Part shown: piece after piece, positions 4,444-50,920 of the stretch
Position numbering within the stretch: position 1 is the first letter of the stretch
Layout of the letters: each line of letters begins with the position of its first letter
DNA from: Ostrinia nubilalis
Lineage: Eukaryota; Arthropoda; Insecta; Lepidoptera; Crambidae
NCBI RefSeq assembly: GCF_963855985.1
Contig: NC_087109.1
Location: forward strand, 9,568,001-9,632,000
Direction of reading: 5' to 3'
Length of the DNA: 64,000 nucleotides
Program-made: the position numbers and the translations under genes
Notes under the pieces: model-generated
What the model saw: the letters and a program-made list of their open reading frames with translations, nothing else
Database searches by the model: none
Told to the model about the DNA's origin: nothing

Positions 4444-4600
4444 GAGAGCGACGACGTGGTGCGTCCGGACGCGCGGCGGCGCTGCGGCGCGCGCCGTCCG
4501 ACTCGGACTGTTCTGGCGAAACCGCCTCGCTGTCCGCCGACAGCGGAGATCGAGCTGTCCGGCCGGTGCCGCCGCCCACCAGGATCACCAAGTCGCGCAG
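4444..4600 (+). CDS. ORP exon: Ser/Asp-rich region before the PH domain
   Basis: Acceptor 'gtttccag' and donor 'gtaagt'. The frame with two leading bases reads a basic stretch, then [18 protein letters not shown], then [14 protein letters not shown]; the last two bases complete a Ser codon with the exon at 6277. The alternative frames give Pro/Arg-rich ORFs without meaning. The 157-bp length is not a multiple of three, so including two copies of this exon would shift the frame. Earlier exons with the start codon must lie upstream, and I could not find them in this window. Confidence 0.7.
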
Positions 4601-7600
4601 GTAAGTCACAACTGCTTAACGATCCCCCCTCTAGTTTGGGAAAGAGATCACATGTCACAGCCTCACGATCCCCCGGTAATGTGAGGAAAAGAGAGCTCTC
4701 ACCCCTGCCTCTTCATTGTTGCTAGGTGGAATTATGTCTGCTCCGGCCTAAGACCCGCAGGTGAGACTCTCCCTCTAGTAAGAGTGAATAAAAGCTAGCC
4801 ACTCACGATCCGAAGAGAGAGACCTCGCACGCTACTGGCACGGTTCCCCCTTTAGTTAGAGAGAGTCGAGACATCGCTCACCACTGCCTCAGGATTCCCC
4901 TATAGTGTGATAGAGTTGTTGCCCTAGTTTCCGACAGTAGCATTTAGCAGCGGATTGTTCTGGTGAAACCGCCTCGCTGTCCGCCGACAGCGGCGATCGA
5001 GCTGTCCGGCCGGTGCCGCCGCCCACCAGGATCACTAAGTCGCGCAGGTAAGTCACAACTGCTTAACGATCCCCCCTCTAGTTTGAGCAAGAGATCACAT
5101 GTCACAGCCTCACGATCCCCCTGTAATGTAAGGAAAAGAGAGCTCTCACCTCTGCTTCTTCATCGCTGCTAGGTGGAATTATGTCTGCTCCGGCCTAAGA
5201 CCCGCAGGTGAGACCCTTCCTCTAGTAAGAGAGAATAAAAGCTAGCCACTCACGATCCGAAGAGAGAGACCTCTCACGCCACTGCTTCACGGTTCCCCCT
5301 CTAGTGAGAGAGAGACGAGACATCGCTCACCACTGCCTCAGGATTCCCCTCTAGTATGAGAGAGTTGTTGCCCTAGTTTCTGACAGTAGCATTTAGCAGT
5401 GGATTGTTCTGGTGAAACCGCCTCGCTGTCCGCCGACAGCGGCGATCGAGCTGTCCGGCCGGTGCCGCCGCCCACCAGGATCACCAAGTCGCGCAGGTAA
5501 GTCACAACTGCCTAACGATCCCCCCTTTAGTTTGAGAAAGAGATCACATGTCACAGCCTCATGATCCCCCTGTAATGTGAGGAAAAGAGAGCTCTCAGTA
5601 CTCTCACCTCTGCCTCTTCATCGTTGCTAGGTAGAATTATGTCTGCTCCGGCCTAAGACCCGAAGGTGACACCCTCCCTCTAGTAAGAGTGAATAAAAGC
5701 TAGCCACTCACGATCCGAAGAGAGAGACCTCGTACGCTACTGCCTCACGGTTCCTCCTTTAGTGAGAGAGAGACGAGACATCGCTCGCCACTGCCTCAGG
5801 ATTCCCCTCTAGTATGATAGAGTTGCTGCCTTAGTTCACGCCAGTAGCCTTTACCAGGGCTGTCCGCCCGGTGCCGCCGCCTATCAGGATCACCAAGTCC
5901 TGCAGGTGAGTTACAACAACTGCTTCACGATCTCTAGTGAGAAAGGCAGAGATCCCCCCTCAGGATCCCCCCTCTAGTTGGAGAGACCCGTGGCTATCTC
6001 AGTAGCCGCGCCGTCCAACCGAGAAACGTGGCTATTAGACACTTCCTTACTATCCCAGCTTAGCCTTCAATGAAACCCAACTAGTGAAGGTTAAGTAGTC
6101 CCGGGGGAAAGCTTCCTGTCTTGAAACCCAGGCATACATATACCCTGAACTTGTCTAAACCACTCATCAAATCTTACTGACAAACTCTTTCACTTGATGA
6201 CAGCTTACCGGATCAAGTCGGTACCTGAGATAGTTTTGACATTTTTAACTTAACAATTGAATATCTTTTTCCTCAGCCGTCGCCGTGGCAGCGAATGGGA
6301 GGTGCTTGAGGGCCTGAAGGACGGCCAGCGCTTCGAGAAGCGGCCGGACGTCTTCAACGGGTACCTGCATAAGAAGCGCAAATGGCCGCTCAAGGGATGG
6401 CACAAGGTAATTAATATTTGAAACCTTTGCTTAGAAGTAACTACCTATCATGCGTTGTCACCGATCTTTTTAAATACTGCATTCCTCGATTGGAAAAGCA
6501 ATAATTTCTTTTGTCTGTAATGTTCCGTTCGATCGTTGTTTTCCGCCAAATGACGTCCACTGCTGGACTAAGGTCTTCCCCAATGATTTCCACAACGAAA
6601 CAAAAACTCATAAGATAGACATAAAGGTTGCAAGAAGGCGCTGGATGCAGGCCACTTCTGACCAGCCAATCTGGAAGCCATTGGTGATAAGTACCTATTT
6701 TCAGCAGAAGACGAGCAGCACTTCATCGTCATCAAGCATCATCATCGTTTCAGCCACAGGTCGTCCTGAAATGATGATGATGGATACGTTTGCGATTAAA
6801 TGACACTCTTACATTTAACATTATAACACTGAAATCACAATGAAAATGTTTCTATAGTGCATTCGCATATTTTATATTAAAAAGGTCCTTAAAAAATTAA
6901 TACAATGTGTGAACAAGAAGTTAGTAACAAAACTATCTTTCTTTCTTCCAGCGTTTCTTCGTAGTAGACGGCGGTATACTAGTATACGCGCGGTCGCCAA
7001 CAGATGTCGCACGCGGCCGCCTGCACGGTTCCGTGGATGTGGGTCTCTCAGTGATTTCGGCCAAGGCGCGGCGCCGGCGCATCGATATAGACGCGGACGA
7101 GTTTATATACCACCTGCGTGCCAAGACGCAGGACGTCTTCCGGACTTGGTTGAGCGTGTTGAAAGCACACAGGTAAATGAGTCTTATTTTTAAGGTTATA
7201 AGGTCCAGTTTCCTTTGACACAATGGTGTGGCGCCGGCGCATCGATATAGACGCGGACGAGTTTATATACCACCTGCGTGCGAAGACGGAGGACGTCCGG
7301 ACTTGGCTCAGCGTTCTGAAGGCGCACAGGTGAAATAAACCTTCTGTCCAACACAATAAGGCACGAATTCTATTGGCTCAGTAGAAGCGGCGCCGGCGCA
7401 TAAACATAGACGATTATAGTAGTAGGGAATTTAGTGCAATGATTTGTATGGAGACCCCTCCACTTTGGTATAGAAGGCTCATTTTTGCAACAGTGGTTCT
7501 TTGGGTCCTCCTAAGTGGATTTCCGTCGGTAGACATCGGGAGCCCCCCCTGTGGTAGCAGGGGGAGGGGGGGCAAGTTTCCTTCTGCCGCGCTTCACTCT

Positions 7601-10600
7601 AAGGCCCATATCTTCAAAACTATGAGTATTAGGGCAAGTGTGGTATCATTTTCAGATAATTAAAGGATGGCGAATTCATTTCTAGTACAAACTTTTTGCC
7701 TTTTCATACAAAAAAATAGAAATATTGAGCAAAATTCACAAAAACCAAAAAGTATTTTTTTAAATAAACGTCGTTTACTTTTAAACCACTGAAGATAATT
7801 AAATAAAAAAATTATGTTCTGAAAGCTACATTTATCAGGATTATAAATATATACCATTGTATGGTACTTTCTTCGCAAAAAGTAGGTGAAAAAAATTTTT
7901 TCTTCAGGACACAGCGGCCGAATTTTATTGCGCATCGGAAAAAAAAATTATTTTAACCATGAATTCATACTATTTGGCTCATAAGCAAGTAAGGATTATT
8001 ATTTTAGAATTTATTTAGAGTTGCTGGCACATCAATCTACCATGATTAGTATTTTTTCTTCAATCGATTTTGAACTCTATGTGAGAGACATAAGGTTGAA
8101 AATAGCTTAAATACATTTTAATATTGAAAATATCATAAGAAGAAAGCACTAAATAAAAAAACTTGAATTTGTCTAATGATTATTATTATTTTAATTAATA
8201 CTTTTATTTCTAAATACTATTGTACCAGTGATTTAACGGAAAGGTAAATGTGAGGAAAATGGAGATTGACATTCATAGTACGGGAGATATTTTTAGCACA
8301 AAGGCTACGGCTGTGACCGTTTTAGTTGTTTTTTCAGACAGCACCAGCTTCTGCACTACTTCTTGCACTTGCATCTCATCATTTCCAGGCAAGCCTCGGC
8401 AGCTACGGGCAAATCGGTCCATGTAGGCTCCATGTTGCTATCAACCCTGGTCCACCCCCAACCAGTCGGGTAAAGGGAAGACTGAGTCGGTTGCTTGCAA
8501 TTGCAACTGATCCTATACGCGAACTCCTTAATATACTGCCAGTAGCCAATGCTGATACAAAGCTGTCTGGGTTATCTTATGTAGGGCCACACCTAAGCGT
8601 AGTCCACAGCGACCCATTAGGATCTTTATGCTTCCTTTTTTATTACCTATCATCCAAAAAAGTCCTGTCCATTAGGTGAATTAAGCATCTGAGTGAAAGT
8701 CACCTAATAGTCTTCTGAAGTTCTGATGCCGGATATGCTGACCCAAGCAGACCCATCCTTACAGTATTAAGTGTTTCATGGACCCCACATGTATTCCACA
8801 TGCTCGAAAGCTGTCTTCTGTAGTTAGGCCCATTTTGTGGGACATGTTGTTCGTTCCATAATGCCCAGTTTGCGTACCCGTAATTGCTTGGGCTTACCTT
8901 TTATTTCCGCTTAATATGAGTTTTCTTCATGACCTTGTATTTCCCTTTAGGAATGATTTGGAGAGGCTTATATCATTGGAGCTTTCCCATTCAGCCCTGT
9001 ACTTCTTGGATATAAGAACAGGGGTGTAAAAAACTCAATATTTACATCCTGAGCCGCAGCCAGGCAGCATTCAAGCAAAGCCATCGCCTCAGTAAACGTT
9101 GAGATCTTAAAGATAAACAAACTCGGAAGGCATGACAAAGTGTCCCTGATGTGGGATACCTGGACATACACGGATCGAATGCAATGAGAGAGCCGACAGT
9201 TTAGCGAGACAAGGGTCAGAGACCATACCTATTGGGTCAGAACTGATAGTACCTTTATCTAAAAGCATACCTCATGCCATATTATGGCCATGGCTGTGGC
9301 TCAGGATGTAAATATTGCGTTTTTTACGCCCCTGTTCTTTAGTGCACACATAATTTATAGCGCAGAATTCAGCTTGAAATACTGAAGCAAACCTCCTTAT
9401 GCGTTCACAGTGTTCGAAGTGTTTCAGTAGACGCCCGTTCCCGTTAAAAAGGCCATCTTGGAGCTGTCAGTAAACCAGATTAGGCTGTTATGTTGGGATT
9501 TTGGTCCTCTTTTCGTCGTCTCTTGTTCCTTAGGATTTTTTCAAGTTATTCAAAATTTTGTATATCAAGGGCTTCGCGTATAGGATCAGTTGCAAACAAA
9601 CGACTCAGTTTTCCCTTTACCCGACTCCTTTATCCTAGTTGGGGGTGGACCAGAGTCGATAGCAACATGGAGCCTATATGGACCGATTTGCCCGTAGCTG
9701 CCAAAGCTTGCCTGGAAATGGTAAGATGTGAGTGCAAAAAATAGTGCTGATGAAGCTGGTGCTGTCTGAAAAAACAACTAAAATGATCACAACCGTAGCC
9801 TTTGTGCTAAAATATATGCCGTACTATGATTGTCAATCCTCATTTTCCTCACACTTACCTTTCCATTAAATCATTGTACAATAGTATGCAGAAATAAAAG
9901 TATTAATTAAAATAATAATAATCATTAGACATTTAGACAAATTCAAGTTCTTTATTTAGTGCTTTCTTCTTATGATATTTTCAATATTAAAATGTATTTA
10001 AGCTATTTACAACCTTATGTCTCTCACATAGAGTTCAAAATCAAAAATACTAATCATGGTAGATTGATGTGCCAGCAACTCTAAATAAATTCTAAAATAA
10101 TAATCCTTACTTGCTTATGAACCAAATAGTATGAATACATGGATAAAATAAATATTTTTTTCCGATGCGCAATAAAATTCGGCCGCTGTGTCCTGAAGAA
10201 AAAATTTTTTTCACCTACTTTTTGCGAAAAAAGTACCATACAATGGTATATATTTATAATCCTGATAAATGTAGCTTTCAGGACATATTTTTTTTATTAG
10301 ATTATCTCCAGTGGTTTAAAAGTAAACGACGTTTATTTAAAAAAATACTTTTTGGTTTTTGTGAATTTTGCTCAATATTTCTATTTTTTTGTATGAAAAG
10401 GCAAAAAGTTTGTTCTAAAAATGAATTCGCCATCCTTTAATTATCTGAAAACGATACCACACTTGCCCTAATATTCATAGTTTTGAAGATATAGGCCTTA
10501 GAGTGAAGCGCGGCAGAAGGAAACTTGCCCCCCCTCCCCCTGCTACCACAGGGGGGGCTACCGATGTCTACCGACGGAAATCCACTCAGGAGCACCCAAA

Positions 10601-43600: not shown

Positions 43601-46600
43601 TGGCCGCGTGCACGTGCGACTGATCACCACTGGCAACCACTACAGCTGGAATGAGGAGACCACTACAGCTGGAATAAGGTAATAATCAACTTCTGGCAGG
43701 AGGCGCGAATTAAGACCAAGTTCTGGGGCAAGTCTATGGAGTTCGACTAGCCGAGTGCACGTGCGTCTGATCACTACTGGCGACCACTACAGCTGGAATG
43801 AGGAGACCACTACAGCTGGAATAAGGTAATAATCTACTTCTGGTAGGAGGCGCGGATCGAGACCAAGTTCTAGGGCAAGTCCATGGAGTTCCAGCCGACT
43901 GGCCGCCTGCACGTGCGTCTGATCACTACCGGAGACCACTACAGCTGGAATAAGGTAATAATAATAATTATTATAAAACTTTATTGCACAATAAGATGGT
44001 ACAAAAGGTGGACTTAATGCTATTTAAGCATTCTCAGCCAGTCGACCCCTGGGTTATGCAGAAAGCTGTGAGTGCGAAGGTAGAGGTAGAAGGGTAGAAG
44101 TTAAAATTGAAGTTAAATGTAATAATCAACTTCTGGTAAGAGGCGCGGATCGAGACCAAGTTCTGGGGAAAGTCCATGGAGTTCCAGCCGACTGGCCGCG
44201 TGCACGTGCGTCTGATCACTACCGGAGACCACTACAGCTGGAATAAGGTAATAATCAGCTTCTGGCAGGAAGCGCGGATCGAGACCAAGTTCTGGGGCAA
44301 GTCCATAGAGTTCCACTGGCCGAGTGCACGTGTGCCTGATTACTACCGGAGACCACTACAGCTGGAATAAGGTAATAATCAACTTCTGGTAAGAGGCGCG
44401 GATCGAGTCCAAGTTCTGGGGCAAGTCCATGGAGTTCCACCCGGAGACCACTACAGCTGGAATAAGGTATTTTAAACTTATCATCATCAACATTTCAGCC
44501 ACAAGGCGTCCACTGCTGAACATCTCCCCCAATGATTTCCAGATTGGCTGGTTGGTAGTGGGCAGGCCTCCTACTAGGTGGACCGACGATCTGGTAAAGG
44601 TCGCGGGAAGAGCCTGGATGCGGGCAGCGCAGGACCGTGCATTGAGGAAATCCTTGGAGGAGGCCTTTTTCCAGCAGTGGACGTCATTTACTGAAACGAA
44701 CGAACGAAGTGGCCTGCATCCAGAGCTTTTCTGCTACCTTTATGAGGTCGTGTATTTAATACATATACAATATACTATACTAGTATACTACTTTTAAACT
44801 CGCTTGGAATCGATTAAATGTGTAGTTATTGATTAATGTCTATCGTATGAGTCGGGTAGACTCCACGCAACAGCTACAGGCAACGTGCCTGCAAGGTGGT
44901 TTCTATGTCTTTCTTTACCTTCAGACGACGTGTCGCTAACTATAGATGGTATTTCATGAATCCAGTAGTCAAGAAGTCATCTGCTGTCCGTAACTTATTA
45001 TCATCATCAGGTCATTTAGGCTAAGAACTCACGGCGCGATTTTCACCCGCGCCCGCGCCGTTTGTGGAATTGCGATTTTATTTCAAAACTCACGGGAGTG
45101 GTTATTTGCGTGGTTATTCTAAGAACTCACGGCGCGATTTTAAATCGCGCCGCGTGCTAAGTCACTGGTACAAAATGGTCGCCCGCCGATCGGGCGGTTT
45201 ATGCGCGGGCGAAAACTGCCGAACGGGACCCGATTACAAACGCGCCCGCTGCGGGCGAAAACCGCGTCGTGAGTTGTGCATTAGTTTTTACATAAGTATC
45301 TGCATTCTACAGAAGCTGCGGGCGCGGGTGAAAATCGCGCCATGAGTTATTAGCCTTAGTCTCCACTGCAAGAACACGATCCTATCCAATTACAATAGTG
45401 TGGCATTGAAGTTTAAATAAATACTTTTCATTAGGTCACAACGTGCGTGCACAATCTGTTCGGAGGTCAGCGTTGGGTGGACCAGTACGGAGACATGCAT
45501 ATAACTTGCCACGGCACTGACATCTCGTGCAAACTCAACTTTATCAAGGTAAGTTTGTTTTTACATGCTTTTAACTGATCAAATATTGTAATGAATAGCT
45601 GCGTTTGGCCGATAATAGCACTTGTTAGAAATTGTTATCAAAATGGCGATCGCAATGGCAACCGCCGAAACTATAGATGACCCACGCTGAACTGTCCCAC
45701 CAAACTCAATAACAGGGGGCGCTACCATCGTTCAACTATATGGTTTCCAACAGCAAAAATCGGAACCAGCGATCCAGTATTGATGGTGGCGCCCCACTGT
45801 CAATGTATTTTGGAACTATAGGATGTTTTCGGAGACGGTTTGCTAAACTTTAAAAGTGACGTTTTCCCATACATTTTTTTAACAGTGACAGCACTTACCG
45901 CTAAAAGGACGCCATTTTGCTTCCTAGTGCTAGCTAGCGCTATTTTTCGCCAAACGCCTCCAATGACAGGATAAATAGAAATACAGATTTGTTTAGCTTT
46001 GAGATGATCGTAGATTAGTTTTGGGAATAGTTTAATCATACTGCAAAATTACGCAAATTCATTGTGAAGCTTACAAATTGAGCTCCCGTACTGAATATTT
46101 TTTAATTTGTTTTTGCTTATTCGGAAGACAATCCCTGGTCTTAGCTATTCCCTGTGGTGTCCCACAAGGAAGTGCTTGTAGGTACCTGTTCAATTATGGG
46201 ATGACCGCAGAAAACTCAGAAACGTTCTTGGTTTTATTTAGCACCCAAGACACACACTCGTAGTAGTAGGAACACCCTGAGTTTTTAACTAATTACAAAG
46301 CAAGTTTGCTTAATTTGGAACTTTATGGCGCAGTGCAAAATGTCCAAGTCAATTTAATTTTTTATGTTCCAGGCTAGTTCCTGGTCCAGCACCAGACACG
46401 AAGTCCGCGGTTGCGTGACTGGCAATGGCACACGGCTTCGCTTGCAAGGGAGGTGGTCAGAAGCCCTATACGCCGGGGAACCACCGGCGGCCCGGTGTCT
46501 TTGGAGGCCTGGTAAGCTTCTCTACAATGATTATATTTGCATCTATATTTGGTTAAGAGACTAATTGGGTGAATAATAAGGGATTAATTTGTATTTTATG

Positions 46601-49600
46601 TATTTGTACTTTTACTGTATTTGACGAATATGTTCCTTCGAAGAATATATTCCCTTGGCGTATATGTTCCATCTCGACGAATATTATCCAATTCGTCGTA
46701 TGTTCCTACTTGACGAAAATTGTGCCTATTCGACAAATAGAGTTCTTATTCAACGTATGTTCCTGCTCGACGTGTAAACTATACAACTTGTGTGTACCGA
46801 TTCAACGAAAATGTTCCGGTTCGACGAAAATGTTCCAATTAGACGTCAATGTTCTAATTCGCCCCAATTCGACGAACATGTTCCATCCACTTCGATGAAA
46901 ATGTTCCAACTCGACGAAAATGTTCCAATTTGCCCCGTATGTTCCAGGCGCGATGCCGCCGGAACACGAGCTGTACTACGGGTTCACGCGGTTTGCGATG
47001 GAGCTAAATGAGATGGAGCCTGGCATGCGGCAGTTGCTTCCCCACACTGATACTCGGCTCAGGTATGATATACTATCAAGAAGTATTTTATTTGCGTAAG
47101 AAAATAAAGAAAAGAAACGGCACAAAGTCTGATTAATATTTTGAATGACGTGTTGTGTCATCTTGACACATCAGATTTGAATTGATTTCATACATTAGAG
47201 TGTTGTGTCGTGGCGTGATGACTTCTGACGTGTCACATAATGTATGAAACCGATTCCGATCTGTGTAACGACAAAACACGTCAGACAAATATAAAACCTG
47301 CTTATTAAAATTTTCATCAAATGTATCAATCCATGTATCTATGCAGAGTAGAGTAATGTAACTCCCACTCTTTATGCCGTAAAAGGAGACTAAACAATAA
47401 AAAAGCCAACATCAGACATCTCTAACACCAATTAATGAACGCCCCCTATCCGCGCGCAAATAGCTCTTTGCGCTTATGACTTCGCGCAAGTGGACCAGAA
47501 TCCCAGTTAGGCACTACCTTACTAGAAACCTGATATTAATTTTTGTTTTTATATCCAGGCCAGACCAGCGAGCGTTAGAAGAAGGCGACGTCGACGCGGC
47601 GGAACAATACAAGCACTCGCTGGAACAAAGTCAGCGCGAACGACGCCGCGGCGTTCCCGAGCACACGCCCGCTTGGTTCCGGTGAGTCTCTGCTCTGTGG
47701 TGACGTAGACGCGGCGGAACAATACAAGCACTCGCTGGAACAAAGTCAGCGCGAGCGACGCCGCGGCGTGCCCGAGCACACGCCCGCTTGGTTCCGGTGA
47801 GTCTCTGCTCTATAGTGACGTAGACGCGGCGGAACAATACAAGCACTCGCTGGAACAGAGTCAGCCCGAGCACACGCCCGCTTGGTTCCGGTGAGTCTCT
47901 GCTCTATAGTGACGTAGACGCGGCGGGACAATACAAGCACTCGCTGGAACAGAGTCAGCCCGAGCACACGCCCGCTTCGTTCCGGTGAGTCTCTGCTCTA
48001 TAGTGACGTAGACGCGGCGGAACAATACAAGCACTCGCTGGAACAGAGTCAGCCCGAGCACACGCCCGCTTCGTTCCGGTGAGTCTCTGCTCTGTGGTGA
48101 CGAAGACGCGGCGGAACAATACAAGCACTCGCTGGAACAGAGTCAGCGCGAGCACACGCCCGCTTGGTTCCGGTGAGTCTCTAGCTGTGGTGACGTAGAC
48201 GCGGCGGGACAATACAAGCACTCGCTGGAACAGAGTCAGCCCGAGCACACGCCCGCTTGGTTCCGGTGAGTCTCTAGCTGTGGTGACGTAGACGCGGCGG
48301 GACAATACAAGCACTCGCTGGAACAGAGTCAGCGCGAGCACACGCCCGCTTGGTTCCAGTGAGTCTCTAGCTGTGGTGACGTAGACGCGGCGGGACAATA
48401 CAAGCACTCGCTGGAACAGAGTCAGCCCGAGCACACGCCCGCTTGGTTCTGGTGAGTCTCTGCTCTGTGTTGACGTAGACGCGGCGGGACAATACAAGCA
48501 CTCGCTGGAACAGAGTCAGCCCGAGCACACGCCCGCTTGGTTCCGGTGAGTCTCTAGATGTGTGGTGACGTAGACGCGACGGAACAATACAAGCACTCGC
48601 TGGAACAAAGTCAGCGCGAACGACGCCGCGGCGTGCCCGAGCACACGCCCGCTTGGTTCCGGTGAGTCTCTAGATGTGTGGTGACGTAGACGCGACGGAA
48701 CAATACAAGCACTCGCTGGAACAAAGTCAGCGCGAACGACGCCGCGGCGTGCCCGAGCACACGCCCGCTTGGTTCCGGTGAGTCTCTAGATGTGTGGTGA
48801 CGTAGACGCGACGGAACAATACAAGCACTCGCTGGAACAAAGCCAGCCCGAGCACACCCCCCTTGGTTCCGGTGAGTCTCTGCTCTATGGTGACGTAGAC
48901 GCGGCGGAACAATACAAGCACTCGCTGGAACAGAGTCAGCCCGAGCACACGCCCGCTTGGTTCCGGTGAGTCTCTGCTCTGTGGTGACGTAGACGCGGCG
49001 GAACAATACAAGCACTCGCTGGAACAGAGTCAGCCCGAGCACACGCCCGCTTGGTTCCGGTGAGTCTCTTGCTGTGGTGACGTAGACGCGGCGGAACAAT
49101 ACAAGCACTCGCTGGAACAGAGTCAGCCCGAGCACACGCCCGCTTGGTTCCGGTGAGTCTCTAGATGTGTAGTGACGTAGACGCGGCGGAACAATACAAG
49201 CACTCGCTGGAACAAAGTCAGCACACACCCGCTTGGTTCCGGTGAGTCTCTGCTCTGTGACTGAGCACGCGGCGAGCGTCCGGAGTGACGTAAACGCGGC
49301 AGGACATACAAAAGCTGGTGTTTAGCAAATAAAAGCTAAAGCACACGTAGCGTTGCGGCGCCGCACCGCAAGGATTTCGCGTGTGCCCGCCACAGATTTT
49401 TCTATGTAAGACTACGACTCCGGCTTCACACCGCTGCCGCAACGCATCCTGTACGTTGGCTTATTAACTGTCGTCTTTTAATAAAATGGAGTATCTTTAA
49501 CCATAAAAATAAAACATTTACAATATTAATATGCTATTATGTCCGTTTAGCAAACGCGTGGAGAACGGCGAAGAGACGTGGGTGTTTACTGGTGAATACT

Positions 49601-49653
49601 GGAAGGCGCGCGAGGCGGGCTTCGCCGACGACGCCGCGCCGAGGATATGGTGA
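4444..49653 (+). CDS. Oxysterol-binding-protein-related protein, ORP3/6/7 type (19 exons seen, 5' end missing)
   Basis: Joined exons: 4444-4600, 6277-6406, 6952-7172, 18963-19084, 20336-20470, 21616-21697, 29456-29598, 30308-30428, 31382-31461, 32089-32211, 32922-33018, 33811-34019, 38606-38818, 42972-43142, 45435-45548, 46373-46511, 46948-47062, 47559-47681, 49551-49653. All have GT donors and AG acceptors. Reading phases match at every junction except 7172/18963, where an exon is missing. Order: Ser-rich N-terminal part, PH domain, coiled-coil-like linker, FFAT motif, ORD domain. Known for the family: ORPs exchange lipids such as PI4P, sterol or phosphatidylcholine at ER contact sites; the PH domain binds phosphoinositides and the FFAT binds VAP in the ER. 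The PH-domain wording ([20 protein letters not shown]) and the EFFDAEE motif point to the ORP3/6/7 group rather than OSBP, ORP9 or ORP5/8. The gene is odd in that eight exons are followed by tandem copies of their own 3' ends. Confidence 0.9.
4930..5910 (+). repeat. Three tandem copies of the 4444-4600 exon with intron (about 450-bp unit)
   Basis: Exon-derived copies end at donors 5047, 5496 and 5905 (cgcag|gtaagt, cgcag|gtaagt, tgcag|gtgagt). They repeat the original donor at 4600 with spacing 447, 449 and 409 bp. Copies 2 and 3 begin after 'catttagcag' and lack the first part of the exon; the fourth is shorter and diverged. The entry phase of copies 2 and 3 (two bases) equals that of the first exon. 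The intronic part (for example ctctagt, aaagctagccactcacgatc) is repeated as well. Confidence 0.85.
6277..6406 (+). CDS. ORP exon: start of PH domain
   Basis: Acceptor 'tcctcag', donor 'gtaatt'. Encodes [11 protein letters not shown], then [18 protein letters not shown]: the first beta strands and the basic loop of a PH domain, in the form typical of ORP3/6/7. The Lys/Arg cluster is the expected phosphoinositide-binding side. Ends in phase 0. Confidence 0.9.
6530..6790 (-). mobile_element. RTE-like LINE 3'-end fragment, rearranged
   Basis: Begins with the inverted RTE terminus (ccgccaaatgacgtccactg, ctggactaaggtcttcccc) and continues with blocks also seen at 44540 (gatgcaggcc, gaccagccaatctggaa). 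The pieces are rearranged and no ORF remains. It lies in the short intron between the two PH-domain exons. Confidence 0.6.
6952..7172 (+). CDS. ORP exon: rest of PH domain
   Basis: Acceptor 'tttcttccag', donor 'gtaaat'. Reads [20 protein letters not shown], then [18 protein letters not shown] and [18 protein letters not shown], ending [10 protein letters not shown]. The final Trp is the invariant tryptophan of the PH C-terminal helix. Ends with two bases of the last codon (ag). The next recognised exon (18963) needs a one-base carry-over, so an unseen exon is implied. The 3' half of this exon is repeated downstream (7225-11600). Confidence 0.9.
7225..7410 (+). repeat. PH-exon tail copies, first block
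   Basis: Positions about 7229-7329 repeat the last about 100 bases of the PH exon (from ggcgccggcgcatcgatata to gcgcacag) with donor gtgaaa. A remnant (gcggcgccggcgcataaaca) follows at about 7388. The copies begin in mid-exon, and the 7229 copy has no AG directly before it. The block is cut by the palindromic element at 7420. Confidence 0.8.
7420..10668. mobile_element. 3.25-kb palindromic (foldback) element carrying degraded LINE sequence
   Basis: Ends TAGTAGGGAATTTAGTGCAA and its exact inverted form, flanked by the triplet TAG on both sides (7417-7419, 10669-10671). The arms (about 7420-8525 and 9575-10668) are long inverted copies with point differences. The inner ends carry a decayed non-LTR polymerase. 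The + strand at 8335-8470 and the - strand at 9777-9640 both read a TAPAS-AL type segment. The centre has RNase-H-like remnants (WFTDSSK on - near 9480-9460; IFTS-A and LMWDTWT on + near 9035-9170). It looks like two inverted copies of one element with joined RNase H ends. It interrupts the PH-exon-tail array. Confidence 0.75.
10672..11600 (+). repeat. PH-exon tail copies, second block (about 7 units)
   Basis: Units of about 60-160 bp end at donors 10722, 10822, 10982, 11122 and 11283 (cacag|gtaaa type), with two decayed units near 11340-11407 and 11515-11585. The unit at 10880-10982 and that at 11182-11283 keep the whole [15 protein letters not shown] to LSVLKAHR reading. Others carry an alternative middle (ccaccagcgcgctaagaggc). 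Most copies lack an AG acceptor, so they offer splice donors without a usable exon start. Confidence 0.8.
11855..12285. mobile_element. Inverted-repeat element, copy 1 of a family also at 21210
   Basis: Left end has cagtgtgctt, agtttacgttaggtgtgct and cgctagcga; right end has cgctagcgagcacacctaac, gtaaactcatggtgagcaca. The same layout (gtgtgctta, gagtttac, cgctagcga, and inverted) recurs at 21210-21521. No ORF. The exact ends are approximate. Confidence 0.55.
12286..12653. other. Upstream region of the nested gene
   Basis: No exon identified. If the nested gene has its own promoter it should be here or further upstream, but I see no convincing core promoter motif. A candidate splice acceptor (cactttcttag, ending 12693) just inside the ORF allows for an upstream exon. 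Confidence 0.35.
12654..16232 (+). CDS. Nested single-exon gene, 1192-codon protein of unknown function
   Basis: Long uninterrupted ORF inside the ORP intron between 7172 and 18963, same strand. I do not recognise the protein. It is rich in Lys, Ser, Asn and Asp, with basic Lys clusters in the first 230 residues (for example [17 protein letters not shown]) and many predicted-disordered stretches. A helical Leu-rich segment lies around residues 875-910 ([20 protein letters not shown]). Several [VS]QT[DE] tetrapeptides (CEVQTES, SQTDVHP, EVQTEKV, SQSQTDK) resemble LC8-type or similar linear motifs, but this is only suggestive. No signal peptide or membrane segment. Its codon content is AT-richer than the ORP exons. 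The first ATG is used here; an AG at 12693 could instead be a splice acceptor, so the N-terminal dozen residues are uncertain. An AATAAA at 16241 follows the stop closely. Confidence 0.75.
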   Translation: MRLLSISSSITFLGTSRISFATSTLTSTEDAHVPESSNSPSSQTPKQEYSVKNHPLKNPFQWHFQNKERKLVFFNFQRRFNAVEKFSDPHHYNRSLCSMNCFTRLNLNDVRVKNVSGSTNAEKQMHITDLESNSHNICTCAKKVKLIKKTETKDSKKKAYTDTTGPATTYYFFSRKKRNTSNSLTEPPMKKSKKCTNLVKYKNMVDEPKLKEPLSKCLLLKKHRAKSPNKDINQLFHRGVGGDVIPKEHNQVQAVEDKEHKSLQDLMSVSEYDKITEHLMISLFENHKITRNSNNNEVKYYISQVVKELYNVKFSQTDVHPVKMLFRSLLEYWLKNTSGEQFKEAMKRVKSVHKPSNRHFTQDKILSSFLLQNATKQTQFHGVSDFINDYEVADQMPTKAPKSNLPKPKLEKKAIRCHSPKRDTESFEKERRIQELERILKNTVYVCETVRSNQSREKDIKITKRLIDNLEKLSKRSGLNNLNEGLDKSNSSSELPKIQETINHLISETSMPPDVAKELLNAYLSVLLNESSKSMTHSSSQSSDDKKCNKNVPPMCEVQTESVQRKISKNITTTNFGDNANQLSNTADPGEQYLKDILDKITTIFSKVGKGDPKNFDNNDKSTGDKNNVPKDELGRPVKEYHGKNLIRENYDENSVVIDLSKYDLEHISMFSDPSLKGMMSITIKLKEKPPNFGESQRHLSLKFCNESKNLTPQTHSDDWLQNLDNNSLKKIFEPIDVSYKQNLYDYDPNCPKDMIELKPYISSSNASSRPYCHIVHESEHSIDLSFQSSNFFKKDYPEDNEDTSCYIVSSFKKNTVSTPLQKKKKVHLKHSNGLVLGPQIRSPIQSSSTKYPEEYSVFEQPTPKVIDEKFILLLLENLTLLSKNLPSLYKDLNALFLKLKKKHEKVVRNGCNIQGLSLLGRIYNDDFKPNDRGTQFDEAEFNETMNNPPKTQDVSVKTSDILLTMKNLTDESLSTTVLKNDIKTEEVQTEKVQETNEVKLKISISHIGFSKEHLGRKSKSLQNMPNQKVTTEQAVSCPVWPKKVSTKECAMSTIIKTILDPPEPKFSIAPAKNFENVQLVTIERDFPKISNRNAVLCVRKELVKGMTALSPSVRVSTQSQTDKIILRHSKDVKANEYNACNEFKVYHVFLGAKEPLQKSNSMMDSLSVTREQSDDLKTIYRCNSEPSFCSG
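16241..16246 (+). terminator. Candidate polyadenylation signal of the nested gene
   Basis: AATAAA nine bases after the TAG stop at 16230-16232. This would give a very short 3' UTR, so a later signal may be used instead. A 16-base piece around the stop codon (ttttgttctggttaga) is repeated about 56 bases downstream. Confidence 0.4.
16605..16868. mobile_element. Palindromic MITE (264 bp), copy 1
   Basis: Nearly perfect palindrome starting CAGGGTGTTAGGTAAATGGG and ending with its inverse, flanked by TA on both sides (target duplication). Same family and same length (264 bp) as 28503-28766. No coding capacity. TA duplication suggests mobilisation by a Tc1/mariner-type transposase. Confidence 0.85.
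16869..18050. other. Intronic stretch with a LINE-tail-like repeat
   Basis: No exon seen. Positions about 17390-17480 (cttctcagcactggcccc, cctgaagcagtggtaggg, tactgggacgtgtaaaagtg) resemble 42375-42430 and 42892-42915 and look like a common 3' end of a lepidopteran retroposon. Short ORFs around 17480-17830 have no recognisable product. Confidence 0.45.
18058..18182. mobile_element. Short palindromic element (about 125 bp)
   Basis: Begins aggtggaattgtgtaaag and ends ctttacacaattccacct; the inner arms (catttgacagtt / aactgtcaaatg) also pair. MITE-sized, no coding. Confidence 0.65.
18400..18595. repeat. Inverted 'caccagttggcgccactg' repeats, copy 1
   Basis: Contains accagttggcgccattg, cagtggcgccatcctggtg, caccagttggcgccactg and cagtagcgccaactggtgag in alternating orientation. 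The same motifs make up the core of the element at 30634-30970. Likely a MITE with internal duplication. Confidence 0.6.
18963..19084 (+). CDS. ORP exon: linker helix after PH domain
   Basis: Acceptor 'ccatttcag', donor 'gtaagt'. Reads [36 protein letters not shown]: a Gln/Leu-rich amphipathic helix, likely coiled coil. In position it matches the segment after the PH domain of ORP3-type proteins. It begins with two bases, which does not fit the two-base overhang of 7172, so an exon lies unseen between them. Ends in phase 0. Confidence 0.8.
19150..19262. repeat. Small inverted repeat (about 110 bp)
   Basis: Arms ttttcaccatcattacctat / agggattgatggtgaaaa with the inner pair aagtgacccct / aggggtcactt. 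Probably a MITE remnant. Confidence 0.55.
19978..20200 (-). mobile_element. RTE-like LINE 3' end
   Basis: Well-preserved terminus starting gtttcagccgaaagacgtac, then actgctggacaaaggcctcc and further blocks (ggtcctgcgccgct, ccagatcatcggtccaccta, gtgggaggcctgccca, gagctatgtgccctgcccac). Read on the - strand it is the C-terminal coding end of an RTE-clade endonuclease-reverse transcriptase, frameshifted. Lies in the intron between the exons at 18963 and 20336. Confidence 0.75.
20336..20470 (+). CDS. ORP exon: basic linker
   Basis: Acceptor 'tttttctcttag', donor 'gtatgt'; 45 codons in phase 0. Contains [17 protein letters not shown], a strongly basic patch, then an acidic/Pro segment ending HIDPSSSHM. 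No catalytic role known; the basic patch may help membrane contact (inference). Confidence 0.8.
20585..20805. repeat. Inverted repeat (about 215 bp)
   Basis: Arms ccactaaagtacgaccaacgag (near 20590) and gctagttggccgtactttagtgg (near 20780). MITE-like remnant; no coding. Confidence 0.45.
21210..21521. mobile_element. Inverted-repeat element, copy 2 of the 11855 family
   Basis: Left arm cagtgtgctta, gcgagtttacat, cgctagcgag; right arm cgctagcgatgacg, gtgtaaactcgca, gcacacag. The layout is like the 11855-12285 element. No coding. Confidence 0.6.
21616..21697 (+). CDS. ORP exon: short Ser/Pro linker
   Basis: Acceptor 'atttcccacag', donor 'gtaagc'. Reads [27 protein letters not shown], and gives one base (g) to the next codon. 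Supported mainly by phase agreement with its neighbours (phase 0 in, one base out) and GC-rich content in AT-rich surroundings. Low complexity, so less certain than the domain exons. Confidence 0.65.
21848..22054. mobile_element. Palindromic MITE (about 206 bp)
   Basis: Starts ggcccagaacagacggtgaa and ends with its inverse; the next arm blocks acgcaactgcaacgaaactg / cagtttcgttgcagttgcgt also pair. No coding. Confidence 0.75.
22068..22195. mobile_element. 'AACCCGGTCGAGTTAACTGC' MITE, copy 1
   Basis: Left end aacccggtcgagttaactgc, right end gctcaatcgggttgt (imperfect inverse), with inner gtgacgtcac. Same family as 32461-32592 and, more decayed, 59230-59340. It starts about 14 bp after the previous MITE. 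Confidence 0.6.
22265..22451. mobile_element. Palindromic MITE (about 187 bp)
   Basis: Begins ggctggttttagtgtcacgc and ends with its inverse; inner arms gatctgtatgaactgctagg / ctagaagttcatacagattg pair. No coding. Confidence 0.75.
22452..27660. other. Long AT-rich intron part, nothing recognised
   Basis: No exon of the ORP gene and no other gene seen. A few ORFs of 60-100 codons (for example 23009-23302, 26951-27193) lack homology I can recognise and have no splice context. Near 24000-24180 the phrase ctcaaccca / aacccact recurs several times between aaaatgggtta and taacccattttaaa-like ends, perhaps a degraded inverted-repeat element. Confidence 0.5.
27681..28198. mobile_element. Tc1/mariner-type non-autonomous element (518 bp)
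   Basis: Left end CACTCATCGTCAAATAAATC then GCACCTCCCGCGACAAGCAC; right end inverse (ggtgcggtttatttgatgtt, gagtg). TA on both sides (27679-27680 and 28199-28200). No ORF of transposase type. Arms of about 45 bp are diverged. Confidence 0.7.
28503..28766. mobile_element. Palindromic MITE (264 bp), copy 2
   Basis: Same family as 16605-16868: starts CAGGGTGTTAGGTAAATGGG, TA on both sides, exactly the same length. The arms of this copy are closer to perfect than in copy 1. Confidence 0.85.
29456..29598 (+). CDS. ORP exon: Gly-rich start, then amphipathic helix
   Basis: Acceptor 'tccctcccag', donor 'gtaagt'. With one base from the previous exon it reads [20 protein letters not shown], then [28 protein letters not shown]. 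The second half looks like a helix of the ORP linker. The phase (two bases in, zero out) fits both neighbours. The Gly-rich first part is the least certain; another AG six or more bases upstream is possible. Confidence 0.75.
29747..30090 (+). repeat. Copies of the 29456-29598 exon
   Basis: 29747-29837 repeats the last about 90 bases of the exon (from ctgacccccgaccatcagct to ccactttg) and its donor gtaagtgaaa. The differences I could compare are mostly silent (gatcat/gaccat, gccaaa/gctaaa, agcttg/agtttg, tctact/tccact), with one Leu codon kept as cta/ctg. A second piece at about 30023-30090 repeats the 5' part of the exon (gtacagcctctattactagt). The MITE at 29857 sits between them. Confidence 0.8.
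29857..30009. mobile_element. 'taaagcctggtccgtgagca' MITE, copy 1 (one arm damaged)
   Basis: Left arm taaagcctggtccgtgagca, then tccaatgacccccaagctac; right end ccaggcttta kept but most of the right arm lost. Related copies at 32681-32887 and 33077-33290 and a remnant near 2630. Confidence 0.75.
30308..30428 (+). CDS. ORP exon: linker helix
   Basis: Acceptor 'tcatccag', donor 'gtgaga'. Reads [40 protein letters not shown] (last codon partly in this exon). Phase 0 in, one base out, which matches the next exon at 31382. Confidence 0.8.
30634..30970. mobile_element. Palindromic element with internal 'caccagttggcgccactg' repeats
   Basis: Outer arms gtcaaatagttcggtgacac / gtgtcacgaactatttgacg, then aatgagggctatcgttttag / aaacgatagccctcattgg. 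The core contains two 'gcgccactgtagagtaaggtcctgt' type blocks, the same core as at 18400-18595. No coding. Confidence 0.7.
30991..31162. mobile_element. Palindromic MITE (about 170 bp)
   Basis: Almost perfect arms: gccggttgcagaccaagagc, taagctaagttagtttcgtt and their inverses at the right end (aacgaaactaacttagctta, gctcttggtctgcaacc). No coding. Confidence 0.8.
31382..31461 (+). CDS. ORP exon: short linker
   Basis: Acceptor 'tttgtgcgcag', donor 'gtgagt'. Completes a Glu codon and reads [26 protein letters not shown]. Two bases in, phase 0 out. Helical then polar. Confidence 0.75.
32089..32211 (+). CDS. ORP exon with FFAT motif (VAP/ER binding)
   Basis: Acceptor 'ctcaacag', donor 'gtatgc', 41 codons. 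Reads [48 protein letters not shown] is a canonical FFAT core (E-F-F-D-A-x-E) with acidic/Ser surroundings. In this family it docks the protein to VAP on the ER membrane. The preceding Ser-rich run is typical and may be phosphorylated (inference). This exon has no tandem copies. Confidence 0.9.
32461..32592. mobile_element. 'AACCCGGTCGAGTTAACTGC' MITE, copy 2
   Basis: Left end caacccgatccagctaactg, right end cgcagttaactcgaccgggt (inverse), with inner gtgacgtcac. About 130 bp. Related to 22068-22195. Confidence 0.65.
32681..32887. mobile_element. 'taaagcctggtccgtgagca' MITE, copy 2
   Basis: Complete palindrome of about 207 bp: taaagcctggtccgtgagca ... accaggcttta, inner arms cgcgcgtaattatattgctg / cagcaacataattacgtgcg. 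It ends only 34 bases before the next ORP exon, close to its acceptor. Confidence 0.85.
32922..33018 (+). CDS. ORP exon: acidic Ser-rich linker
   Basis: Acceptor 'tatctccacag', donor 'gtgagt'. Reads [32 protein letters not shown]. Phase 0 in, one base out. A highly acidic, probably disordered and phosphorylatable stretch between FFAT and ORD. Confidence 0.8.
33077..33290. mobile_element. 'taaagcctggtccgtgagca' MITE, copy 3
   Basis: Complete palindrome of about 214 bp, the best preserved copy. It lies about 60 bases after the previous exon's donor, so two copies of the family bracket the exon at 32922. Confidence 0.85.
33560..33712. repeat. Inverted repeat around 'aagcgctttttt' (about 145 bp)
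   Basis: Left gggtgcgtttggcggaaaaa, right ttcagccaaacgcaccc, with two direct copies of caagcgcttttttcagc. A looser version with gcgtttggcc / cgccaaacgc lies at 45600-45955. Confidence 0.5.
33811..34019 (+). CDS. ORP exon: start of ORD lipid-binding domain
   Basis: Acceptor 'ctcttccacag', donor 'gtaagg'. Together with one base from the previous exon it reads [20 protein letters not shown], a Cys/Pro-rich segment, then [33 protein letters not shown]. The last two pieces are the lid/first part of the ORD, matching the family pattern W-x-(I/L)-L ... IGK-(D/E)-LS-(K/Q)-I-(T/S)-MPV-x-(F/I)-NEPL. It is the only copy with a good polypyrimidine acceptor. About 27 further copies of its 3' part follow. 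Confidence 0.9.
34020..38445 (+). repeat. Tandem array: about 27 copies of the ORD first exon's 3' part
   Basis: Units of about 145-180 bp (mean about 165), each with the [20 protein letters not shown] to NEPLNMLQ coding block followed by a GT donor. Donor-side ends at 34182, 34345, 34488, 34666, 34822, 35003, 35166, 35332, 35510, 35666, 35814, 35992, 36169, 36331, 36489, 36640, 36805, 36966, 37121, 37269, 37447, 37593, 37771, 37862, 38041 and 38222, plus a truncated one near 38440. Many units have gtaaaaaaaaaagaaaa after the donor; others gtatgtgacgtcactgggg. Broken units: a 4-bp insertion giving a stop (35666, 37121), a stop in 37862, a 6-bp in-frame loss (34822). Most others encode the same protein. 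Confidence 0.92.
38235..38335 (+). mobile_element. RTE-like LINE 3' tail inserted in the array
   Basis: From gtacctggatgcaagcggcg to cagcagtggacgtctttcgg, gctgaaacga: the 3' terminal coding end of the RTE family in sense orientation. It splits the last units of the exon array. Confidence 0.7.
38606..38818 (+). CDS. ORP exon: ORD core ([11 protein letters not shown])
   Basis: Acceptor 'tttttgttccag', donor 'gtcagt', 71 codons in phase 0. Contains [65 protein letters not shown]. The PFNPLLxETYE block is a hallmark of the ORD, and the final EQ begins the OSBP fingerprint completed by VSHHPP in the next exon. The sequence gctggacgcagcagcggaat in this exon is the parent of the minisatellite downstream. 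Confidence 0.92.
38870..42160 (+). repeat. Array of exon copies plus 20-bp minisatellite derived from the exon
   Basis: Four long copies of the exon's last about 155 bases ([11 protein letters not shown] to FIAEQ with donor gtcagt) end at 39485, 40224, 40958 and 41690, spacing 667, 739, 734 and 732 bp. Between them are blocks of a 20-bp unit of the form tgctagacgcagcagcggaa, which differs from exon bases about 38637-38657 by one base (tgctgg to tgctag). At 39001-39200 ten units tgctagacgcagcagaagga are identical. Two copies of a retroposon-like piece (40967-41190, 41697-41925; cactgttggacatagattt) were duplicated along with the unit. Confidence 0.9.
42161..42960. other. Intron with repeat fragments
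   Basis: No exon. At 42175-42240 there is a cttttttgtcaccgtgacag-type inverted motif, also seen near 58735-58870. At 42375-42430 and 42890-42915 are pieces of the retroposon tail like 17390-17480, here split by about 450 bp whose ends (tatacaccacaaaatttttatcaccgaaa / tttcggtgataaaaatgtagtggtgta) are inverted repeats. That split marks an inserted element of about 460 bp at roughly 42427-42894. Confidence 0.55.
42427..42894. mobile_element. Inverted-repeat element inside a retroposon tail
   Basis: Left end tatacaccacaaaattttta, then tcaccgaaaaaaaaa; right end inverse (ttttttcggtgataaaaatg, tagtggtgta). The flanking halves of a retroposon tail (gtggtagggcaagc before, gggacgtgggaaagggccta after) are contiguous in related repeats. 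No coding capacity. Target duplication not resolved. Confidence 0.6.
42972..43142 (+). CDS. ORP exon: OSBP fingerprint VSHHPP
   Basis: Acceptor 'gaattgcccag', donor 'gtaata', 57 codons in phase 0. Begins [20 protein letters not shown], then [20 protein letters not shown] and [17 protein letters not shown]. With EQ from the previous exon this completes [11 protein letters not shown], the family signature; in known structures the two His contact the PI4P head group. FWGKSMEF is another conserved ORD block. Confidence 0.93.
43143..44470 (+). repeat. Tandem array: nine copies of the VSHHPP exon's 3' part
   Basis: Unit about 125-150 bp: gcgcggatcgagaccaagtt to agctggaataag, donor gtaataatcaacttctgg. 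Copies end at 43271, 43400, 43526, 43678, 43825, 43954, 44247, 44371 and 44466. The VSHHPPISA part is absent from all copies. Most retain [20 protein letters not shown]; the last three and those at 43678 and 43825 carry small deletions, an internal 'aatgaggagaccactacagctgg' mini-duplication or frameshifts. A retroposon fragment sits at 43966-44115. Confidence 0.9.
43966..44115. mobile_element. Retroposon fragment inside the VSHHPP array
   Basis: Starts attataaaactttattgcac, then gtacaaaaggtggacttaat, gcattctcagccagtcgacc and ends near aagttaaatg. This is a typical 3' end of a lepidopteran non-LTR repeat, inverted (poly(A)-side on the left). It interrupts the intronic 'gtaataat' of one unit. 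Confidence 0.6.
44485..44712 (+). mobile_element. RTE-like LINE 3' end, snap-back copy
   Basis: Starts with the inverted terminus (ttcagccacaaggcgtccac, tgctgaacatctcccccaat) and goes on in sense orientation: reading [42 protein letters not shown], ending aacgaacgaacga. The C-terminal coding end of an RTE-clade endonuclease-reverse transcriptase is clear; the short antisense start makes it a folded copy. Confidence 0.75.
45010..45357. mobile_element. Palindromic element around 'gcgcgattttcacccgcgcc'
   Basis: Left ggctaagaactcacggcgcg, attttcacccgcgcccgcg; right inverse gggcgcgggtgaaaatcgcg, ccatgagttattagcc. A second internal 'taagaactcacggcgcgatt' at about 45118 suggests an internal duplication. 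GC-rich inside AT-rich intron. No coding. Confidence 0.65.
45435..45548 (+). CDS. ORP exon: ORD ([16 protein letters not shown])
   Basis: Acceptor 'acttttcattag', donor 'gtaagt', 38 codons in phase 0. Reads [38 protein letters not shown]. The CVHN-(L/I)-x-x-G-x-x-W-(V/I)-(D/E)-xYG pattern is characteristic of the ORD beta barrel. No tandem copies. Confidence 0.92.
45600..45960. repeat. Loose inverted repeat, MITE-like
   Basis: Left ctgcgtttggccgataatag, right tagcgctatttttcgccaaac, with weak pairing inside. Resembles the element at 33560-33712. No coding. Confidence 0.35.
46120..46200 (+). pseudogene. Possible remnant of a LINE reverse transcriptase
   Basis: A short stretch reads [20 protein letters not shown], reminiscent of the GVPQGSxLGPxLF motif of non-LTR reverse transcriptases. 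The flanks do not extend the similarity convincingly, so this is tentative. Confidence 0.35.
46373..46511 (+). CDS. ORP exon: ORD
   Basis: Acceptor 'tttttatgttccag', donor 'gtaagc'. Reads [46 protein letters not shown]. The G-x-W-(S/T)-E-x-L-Y pattern is conserved in ORPs. Compared with vertebrate ORP3 the following insert is short. Phase 0 in, one base out. Confidence 0.9.
46615..46947 (+). repeat. Minisatellite of 'atgttccaattcgacgaaa' units ending at the splice acceptor
   Basis: About 15 irregular units of 18-24 bp combining atgttcca and ttcgacgaaa. The final unit, tatgttccag, is itself the acceptor of the exon at 46948. The acceptor of the preceding exon (46363-46372) is also tatgttccag. 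ORFs across this block are repeat artefacts. Confidence 0.8.
46948..47062 (+). CDS. ORP exon: ORD
   Basis: Acceptor 'tatgttccag', donor 'gtatga'. Completes a Gly codon and reads [37 protein letters not shown]. Conserved (Y/F)xFTxFAxELNE and LPxTDxRLR blocks of the ORD. Two bases in and two out. Confidence 0.92.
47559..47681 (+). CDS. ORP exon: ORD C-terminal helix
   Basis: Acceptor 'tttatatccag', donor 'gtgagt'. Reads (R)[40 protein letters not shown]. RPDxRALExGD is the conserved start of the ORD C-terminal helix; [10 protein letters not shown] matches LEExQRxxR of the family. One base in, two out. Followed by 16 tandem copies. Confidence 0.93.
47682..49245 (+). repeat. Tandem array: 16 copies of the ORD C-terminal exon tail
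   Basis: Unit gacgtagacgcggcggaaca to gcttggttccg, donor gtgagtctct. Two size classes: 115-116 bp (ends 47796, 48661, 48777) and 93-94 bp (ends 47890, 47984, 48078, 48172, 48265, 48358, 48451, 48545, 48871, 48965, 49059, 49152), plus 89 bp (49241). The short class lacks 21 bases, removing seven codons (RERRRGV) in frame. The start of the exon (PDQRALEEG) is not in any copy. Many short units have gaa to gga (Glu to Gly). Confidence 0.92.
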
Positions 49654-49670
49654 CTGTATCTTGCCATACA
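49551..49670 (+). CDS. ORP last coding exon and stop
   Basis: Acceptor 'tgtccgtttag'. Coding to the TGA at 49651-49653: [33 protein letters not shown]. WxFxGxYW is the conserved C-terminal ORD motif. The exon probably continues to a donor cac|gtaagt at 49670/49671, so the 3' UTR is spliced. The stop is less than 50 bases from that junction, so the transcript should not be a nonsense-decay target. Confidence 0.88.
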
Positions 49671-49687
49671 CGTAAGTGACTTTTTAC

Positions 49688-50380: not shown

Positions 50381-50388
50381 CTTTTTAC

Positions 50389-50920
50389 TTAAAATTTTGT
50401 AAGTGGGAATTTATTTCCCACCATATGTTTACTTATTCCTTGTCTCAAGGTCCAAAAACAGTGCAGTTCTTGCCATACACATGAGTTGCTTTTACGCTTA
50501 AGTTTTGTAAGTGGGAAAGTATTTCCCACAAAATTTTTCACCTTATTCCCTTGTCTTGAAGTCCAAAAACAGTGCAGTTCTTGCCATTTATGTAATTTGC
50601 CTTATGAAATTTACCTAAGATTTTGTAGGTCTGATTATATTCCCACCATATTTTTTTACTTATTCCCTTGTCTCGAAGTCCAAAAACAGTGCAATTCTTG
50701 CCATACACGCGAGTTGCTTTTTTACTAAAGGTTTTTTAAGTGGGAATATATTTCCCATCGTATTTTTTTACTTATTGCCTTGTCTCAGGGTCCAAAAACA
50801 GTGCACTTCTTGACATACATGCGAGTTGCCTTTTTACTTAAGTTTCTTATTTTGTAGGTGGGTTCCCACCATATTTTTTTACATATTCCCTTGTCTCAGG
50901 GTTCAAAAAGAATACAAAGT
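50389..50920 (+). repeat. Tandem array: copies of the 3' UTR exon tail and intron start (about 110-bp unit)
   Basis: The block cttgccatacac|gtaagtgactttttac (49659-49687) recurs in altered form near 50471, 50579, 50695 and 50807, spaced 109-116 bp. It alternates with ttttgtaagtgggaa, tttcccacca and tccaaaaacagtgcagttct. Removing the hAT insertion restores the same spacing from the original. The donor itself is mutated in the copies (atgagt, gtaatt, gcgagt). Confidence 0.8.

Follow-up and report, generated by a model that had tools for sequence, protein, structure and literature searches.

We examined a window of 64,000 nucleotides from the moth Ostrinia nubilalis (C22:9568001-9632000 in the 495-Mb assembly), whose plus strand carries an ORP3/6-type oxysterol-binding protein gene, and found that the 3' part of seven of the gene's exons recurs, together with the 5' splice site (donor), in the exon's own downstream intron. 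The copies, though probably left out of splicing and translation, differ from one another as coding sequences do, mainly at third codon positions. The reading that we favor, with a probability of somewhat under one half (about 0.46), is that duplications of exon tail plus donor are tolerated, that exon and copies exchange sequence in both directions, and that selection acts at the exon only.

The joined exons match human ORP3 structures with an E of 1e-103, and the best protein relatives are from Lepidoptera (Nymphalis io, Scirpophaga, Plutella, Zerene and Spodoptera). There are 21 coding exons in our model, of which 19 were found between 4444 and 49654 with the Nymphalis protein as a guide, and two, at 30308 and 31378, were located with four further lepidopteran proteins as guides. 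Self-blastn detected the repeats for the exons at 4444, 6952, 29456, 33811, 38606, 42972 and 47559 (here A, B, C, E, F, G and I). The repeated part opens 25-118 nt into the exon (at +60 in A, +108 to +118 in B, +48 in C as counted from 29456, +47 to +90 in E, +31 in F, +54 in G, and +25 in I) and reaches from about 10 nt (C) to about 350 nt (A) into the intron. The arrays thus begin within exons and cross the donor without an acceptor, as the original prediction for this DNA had described, and its copy numbers for these seven exons agree with our counts, which include full and partial copies. Its eighth case, the terminal exon J at 49551, did not hold up: no copies of this exon were found downstream, and the array that does lie beyond it begins about 730 bp downstream of J, its only resemblance being 8 matching nt in the exon and 13-14 nt at the start of the 3' untranslated region. 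Because their unit sizes differ, the arrays seem to have arisen separately, all with one polarity, again as proposed. They are also not universal: 13 of the 20 non-terminal exons are free of copies (6275, 11737, 17727, 18956, 20336, 21616, 30308, 31378, 32089, 32919, 45435, 46370 and 46944), and array-bearing exons are longer than array-free ones (7 versus 11 exons, P 0.003). The arrays, their exons, and the two array-free exons added with the further guides are as follows, all on the plus strand.

4444..4600, plus strand: exon A, donor GTAAGT
4504..5932, plus strand: exon A array with a unit of about 450 bp, comprising the exon tail, two full copies and one partial copy (three counted)
6952..7172, plus strand: exon B
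7060..11368, plus strand: exon B copies at 7230-7334, 10880-10987, 11031-11128 and 11181-11290, plus fragments (11 pieces, 3-4 of them near full)
29419..29598, plus strand: exon C, 5' end approximate (29456 or farther upstream)
29504..29847, plus strand: exon C array, a single extra copy at 29743-29847 with 94% identity
30308..30427, plus strand: array-free exon
31378..31458, plus strand: array-free exon, ends approximate
33811..34019, plus strand: exon E, where the ORD domain begins
33858..38442, plus strand: exon E array, 27 full or partial copies, leaving only about 163 bp of the intron unfilled
38606..38818, plus strand: exon F
38637..42130, plus strand: exon F array, four full copies of tail plus donor (39312, 40051, 40785 and 41509) amid 20-bp minisatellite stretches
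42972..43142, plus strand: exon G
43026..44469, plus strand: exon G array, 12 pieces, of which 8-9 are near-full copies of about 129 bp and the others fragments, with stops at 5 of 306 codons
47559..47681, plus strand: exon I
47584..49274, plus strand: exon I array, units of 94-116 bp, 17 copies with partial ones included
49551..49654, plus strand: exon J, the terminal coding exon, ending PRIW-stop
50382..50917, plus strand: array 3' of the stop codon, unit about 110 bp, not built from exon J

The same layout is present at other loci. A whole-genome search with the ORP domain matched the same domain segment repeatedly at other ORP loci, and in the DNA of four of these (C1, C17, C21 and C28) we found tail arrays. 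Some copies at the C17 and C21 loci extend to the first base of the exon, yet have no working-looking acceptor. An origin of the copies from partly spliced RNA looks unlikely, in that these full-length copies are preceded, as judged by eye, by simple repeat or degenerate intron and not by an exon. Three unrelated families, searched as controls, gave 68 (CCT chaperonins), 79 (myosins) and 33 (adaptins) matches; behind some of the exons lie additional matches that end at the same point as the exon match but begin later. Seven such exons, picked because the match tables hinted at tails, were read in the DNA (CCT2 on C7; myosin on C27 and C18; CCT on C12, C16 and C27; adaptin on C5), and all seven proved to be exon tail plus donor with the head missing, one copy on C12 being frameshifted. 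By eye, the four family match tables contain no head-only repeats; whole-exon repeats occur in adaptin on C2 and C21, in the last CCT exon on C12 and in an Mhc-like set on C10, with adaptin on C16 and CCT on C30 ambiguous.

To these we can add 90 kb of arbitrary DNA, which holds 11 tandem clusters. Ten are single two-copy pairs, unannotated, and the only large one (about 16 units; C12:3003061-3005308, minus strand) is built on an exon ending ITATHCVHE, which we take to belong to the serine-protease family; a complete copy with its acceptor stands at the 5' end, followed by copies of tail plus donor. Three-base periodicity gave P 0.02 for this array and P 0.12 or more for the four scorable non-exon clusters. 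The arrays in CCT, myosin, adaptin and protease-like exons rule out an effect specific to ORP genes or to a single gene, and together with the other ORP loci they leave no support for tying the pattern to one gene. Repeats lying at random places in introns, which the original prediction had said would speak against it, do exist in part, as the two-copy pairs attest. Two of the loci have features of their own: in the myosin array at C27:2638501-2645500, most alignments offset by 203 bp or a multiple of it show 99.5-99.8% identity, making it a young example, and one ORP locus (C21:9365001-9395000) carries a satellite-like unit of about 193 bp in two separate blocks, without clear codon periodicity.

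For the analysis of codon positions we retained copies that covered 60% of the length and reached the donor. Thirteen arrays at six loci had at least two usable copies, while array C1.3, of which no copy passed, is absent from these counts and from the scoring of acceptors. ORP-locus clusters for which no exon is known stand outside these counts, for example C17 19908-21407 and 21940-26117, C28 14835-15715 and 17631-18824, and also C1 6769-7707 and 21357-21895 (script coordinates). Pooled divergence between copies is 1.9% at the first codon position, 2.8% at the second and 17.4% at the third (342/18120, 518/18326 and 3177/18289 differences), in a set whose pairs are not independent and which array E dominates. 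Positions 1 and 2 are clearly below position 3 in 8 of the 13 arrays, and the largest third-position divergence is the 22.8% of array E. Since the low divergence at the first two positions and the high divergence at the third appear when copy is compared with copy, the constraint is not merely that of the exon itself. Set against its 25 copies, exon E shows 27, 16 and 306 differences at the three positions; by codon, 305 are synonymous, 21 nonsynonymous and one a stop. Distinct minor alleles follow the same pattern, with 23/24/78 singletons and 12/7/48 shared variants at positions 1/2/3 (P 3e-11 and 2e-10 against one third), and with array E excluded the third position still holds 68 of 108 singletons and 19 of 32 shared variants. 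The intron parts of the same units differ between copies by 7.8-44.9% in A, B, F, G and I, although some of the intron behind the larger values may be misaligned. GT is retained in 84 of 88 copies and stops occupy 13 of 3342 codons, in copies that had been preselected for reaching the donor.

That the copies are probably neither spliced nor translated is suggested by what precedes them. The median score of true acceptors is reached by 16 of 89 copies, as against 28% of 1000 random intron windows, and relative to random intron no acceptor enrichment was seen near copy starts (copy ends were left unscored). If the copies were alternative exons, in use at certain stages or sites and conserved directly as translated sequence, both the constraint by codon position and the kept donors would be explained, and the Plutella and Helicoverpa gene models do include repeated tails of exon F; these models are predictions, however, and we consider such exons very unlikely given the lack of acceptor enrichment, the missing head, the stops in G, spacers that vary in length between the copies of array E, and a peptide that is one and the same in nearly all copies of an exon. 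Nor do the copies encode different versions of the protein: their differences are mostly synonymous, with arrays I, C1.1, C17.1 and C28.1 as exceptions. Recursive splicing was rejected on two grounds, the missing acceptor enrichment near copy starts and the fact that two of the seven array exons do not end in AG (C ends TTTG and I ends TCCG). Recursive splice sites, or ratchet points, are likewise intronic donors, often with AG/GT, whereas the sites described here are without acceptor enrichment and AG/GT is not general among them.

The polarity of the arrays is one-sided. Direct-repeat clusters within the gene comprise seven that cross only a donor, none that cross only an acceptor, one intronic cluster (30697-30860) and one dispersed repeat (29850-33297); a more sensitive search added a weak two-copy intron repeat (30158-30300) that stops 8 nt before the exon at 30308 and does not cross its start. 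A random 150-bp unit would cross only a donor 5.1% of the time, a figure based on 18 donors that two more exons would raise slightly, giving P 7e-9 for seven of eight clusters and 3e-8 for seven of nine, with the caveat that arrays containing exon, being conserved, are perhaps easier to detect. Donor and acceptor clusters stand at 7:0 (one-sided P 0.008). This polarity probably reflects tolerance in splicing: if the machinery commits to whichever donor and acceptor is transcribed first, added downstream donors would be harmless and added upstream acceptors harmful.

A process tied to the 5' splice site (R-loops, U1-bound polymerase pausing or transcription-replication conflict) might generate tandem duplications there and set the polarity in place of splicing tolerance, as could be argued from the excess of donor-crossing clusters (seven of 8-9, against about 5% expected) and from the scarcity of pure intron arrays in the gene. 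We find this distinctly unlikely: two-copy repeats in introns and between genes are common in arbitrary DNA (ten in the 90 kb), and donor seeding leaves the coding-like constraint unexplained, although it could operate together with exchange. Indeed, none of the causes first proposed for the arrays, namely R-loop slippage, transcription-coupled repair and extra U1 sites, predicts a kept reading frame and kept amino acids. In a more elaborate form of the last proposal, the copies would be selected donor decoys, intronic U1 sites that guard against premature polyadenylation or tune splicing. The high retention of GT would suit such a role, as would the donor sequences in array E, which vary and remain donor-like, but amino-acid conservation would go unexplained. 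There is also little long intron to protect, since subtracting the arrays behind A, E, F, G and I leaves introns of only 163-965 bp, and we give decoys a very slight probability.

The analysis of recombination or conversion among copies covered array E, and it showed a mosaic structure there: of 136 informative site pairs, 102 violate the four-gamete test, as do 13 of the 27 pairs that lie within 15 bp. Divergence is independent of distance along the array. In 8 of the 13 arrays (B, F, G, C1.1, C1.2, C17.1, C17.2 and CCT2) third-position divergence between exon and copies is similar to that among copies, and here the exon behaves as if it were an ordinary member of the pool. We ran forward simulations in which selection acted only on the unit in exon position. 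With the exon excluded from exchange, the nonsynonymous to synonymous ratio between copies was 0.94-1.32; with two-way exchange at N*g of 5-20 it was 0.08-0.27 (0.12-0.28 in a separate run), and the observed pooled ratio is about 0.14-0.30. Exchange with the exon is therefore favored, as the simulated pattern arises only when the exon takes part.

The favored mechanism would then run as follows. Tandem duplications that start within an exon and end in the next intron would carry the tail and its 5' splice site, and would persist in a number of genes. They are presumably tolerated because the real donor is transcribed first; an acceptor duplicated upstream of the exon would be encountered before the real one and disrupt splicing. 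Through gene conversion or unequal crossing-over, exon and copies would swap short stretches, with both directions favored, although the rate and direction of exchange, like the RNA use and function of the copies, are matters that we infer. Selection would test variants only while they are in the exon, purging changes to amino acids, frame and donor from the pool and letting synonymous ones survive. Copies would look coding, while probably unspliced and untranslated, because selection filters the shared pool at the exon alone.

Several observations weigh against this reading. One-way transfer at N*g of 5-20 also gave low simulated ratios, 0.03-0.20 where only the exon donated and 0.11-0.58 where copies also exchanged among themselves; because ratios are low under both one-way and two-way transfer, the simulations do not fix direction. 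In 5 of the 13 arrays (A, E, I, C21.1 and C28.1) the exon is farther from the copies than these are from one another, and over its last 44 bp exon E differs from every copy at no fewer than 6 sites, with copies at 0-3 from the nearest copy. The codon pattern is weak or absent in I (4.1% at position 2 versus 1.6% at position 3), C1.1, C17.1 and C28.1, and C21.1 is invariant. Array I, in which 11 of 14 usable copies have a 21-bp in-frame deletion in common, is without the synonymous bias of the other arrays. A relaxation among singletons was seen only in E (third positions account for 29 of 35 shared and 10 of 17 single variants, P 0.09) and is absent elsewhere. Recurrent mutation at saturated third positions could explain part of the four-gamete failures. 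Finally, the bias toward the donor fits poorly: selection accounts for missing head arrays but not for there being so few arrays made of intron alone in this gene, unless such arrays have decayed past recognition.

The first of these points bears on a rival possibility, in which the exon keeps supplying the array with new or corrected copies and receives nothing back; the copies would then look coding as recent images of a constrained exon. The simulated one-way ratios overlap the data, and some arrays do look very young (as in myosin, with its near-identical 203-bp units). Simulated synonymous divergence under one-way transfer, however, stays at 0.10-0.19 (expected 0.08, N*g 20), and the real third-position value reaches 22.8%, which exceeds the synonymous diversity usual within moth species; moreover, the copies in array E hold many synonymous states that are absent from the exon. 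We judge transfer in one direction unlikely, although less so than donor seeding. Under two-way exchange at N*g 20 the simulated value is 0.22 for 5 units and 0.49 for 15. The large synonymous divergence in E would speak for exchange in both directions, under which such divergence grows with copy number in simulation; among the real arrays this rise is weak (Spearman 0.44, P 0.13), a further point on the other side.

Gene models from other species were also compared, as predicted proteins and not as DNA. The ORP3 models repeat the tail of exon F, ending at the exon end, four times in Plutella xylostella and twice in Helicoverpa armigera, and one Tuta absoluta model repeats a different piece. 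Repeated 10-mers occur in 3 of 12 lepidopteran ORP3 models versus 1 of 108 others (Salmo trutta P0038). The copies in the Plutella model, a gene prediction without DNA, have residues in common with the Plutella exon. An assembly artefact might be suspected from our use of a single assembly, but with copy differences that are mainly synonymous and the same exon F tail repeated in the models of other moths, its probability is close to negligible. For ORP1/2 the tail repeat was found in 0 of 10 models taken as lepidopteran, and repeats were also present in two mollusc models among the other 110. The only one of the ten with any repeat, the Heliothis virescens model (P0121), contains a block of about two exons twice, which may be a duplication of assembly or prediction or may be real.

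Among known systems, tandem mutually exclusive exons (insect Dscam-type, Mhc) likewise place tandem exon copies within one gene in units that include adjacent intron; those exons are whole, have their own acceptor and encode differing protein, whereas the moth copies lack head and acceptor and encode a nearly uniform peptide. Mutually exclusive exons are reported to originate from tandem duplications that take in adjacent intron (PMC6071210). At C10:1895670-1897021 one segment of the myosin head domain is matched four times, resembling the known Mhc exons of this kind. Tandem repeats under concerted evolution, through gene conversion and unequal crossing-over, likewise form mosaic copies, but in the moth arrays a working exon contributes its tail as one member and the rest are intronic, so that constraint would pass to sequence that has no function itself. 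Silent cassettes, as of pilin and VSG, are likewise partial, unexpressed copies beside one expressed copy; the moth copies keep the same protein rather than diversify it, and show no gene switching. As for intronic minisatellites, array F includes one of 20 bp, whereas the other units, of about 94-450 bp, start in the exon and end past the donor. This minisatellite (38873-42118) is derived from an internal piece of exon F and lies within the intron copies as a second layer of amplification.

Arrays of exon tail plus donor were not described in the open-access literature in a word search by title and opening of the abstract. Of the ingredients, tandem repeats, partial duplication of exons and concerted evolution are all known kinds; a class of one-sided exon-tail arrays that occurs in many genes and inherits coding constraint has, within the reach of these searches, not been described. 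If the favored reading is right, protein-like constraint in DNA would be no proof of translation, since untranslated copies could inherit it by exchange with an exon. Gene prediction would also be misled by such arrays (as in the Plutella and Helicoverpa models), and so would scans of dN/dS and the calling of variants at exon ends from short reads. Their one-sided polarity would reveal, as a natural experiment, which duplications of splice sites are tolerated in animals. The arrays offer many places for measuring conversion between exon and copy, with the young myosin array useful for catching new copies. A bolder extension, which we regard as unlikely, is a genome-wide class of "spare exon tails" in cis in Lepidoptera, an intronic template pool from which exon ends would be continually rewritten, and through which they would be checked, by way of untranslated copies. 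Were it so, exon ends would evolve as a small multigene family within one gene, and arrays might persist by helping to repair or purge the exon.

A dispersed repeat with inverted copies is present in the window at 29850-29984, 32680-32894, 33070-33297 and 2626-2682, and is possibly a transposable element in several introns.

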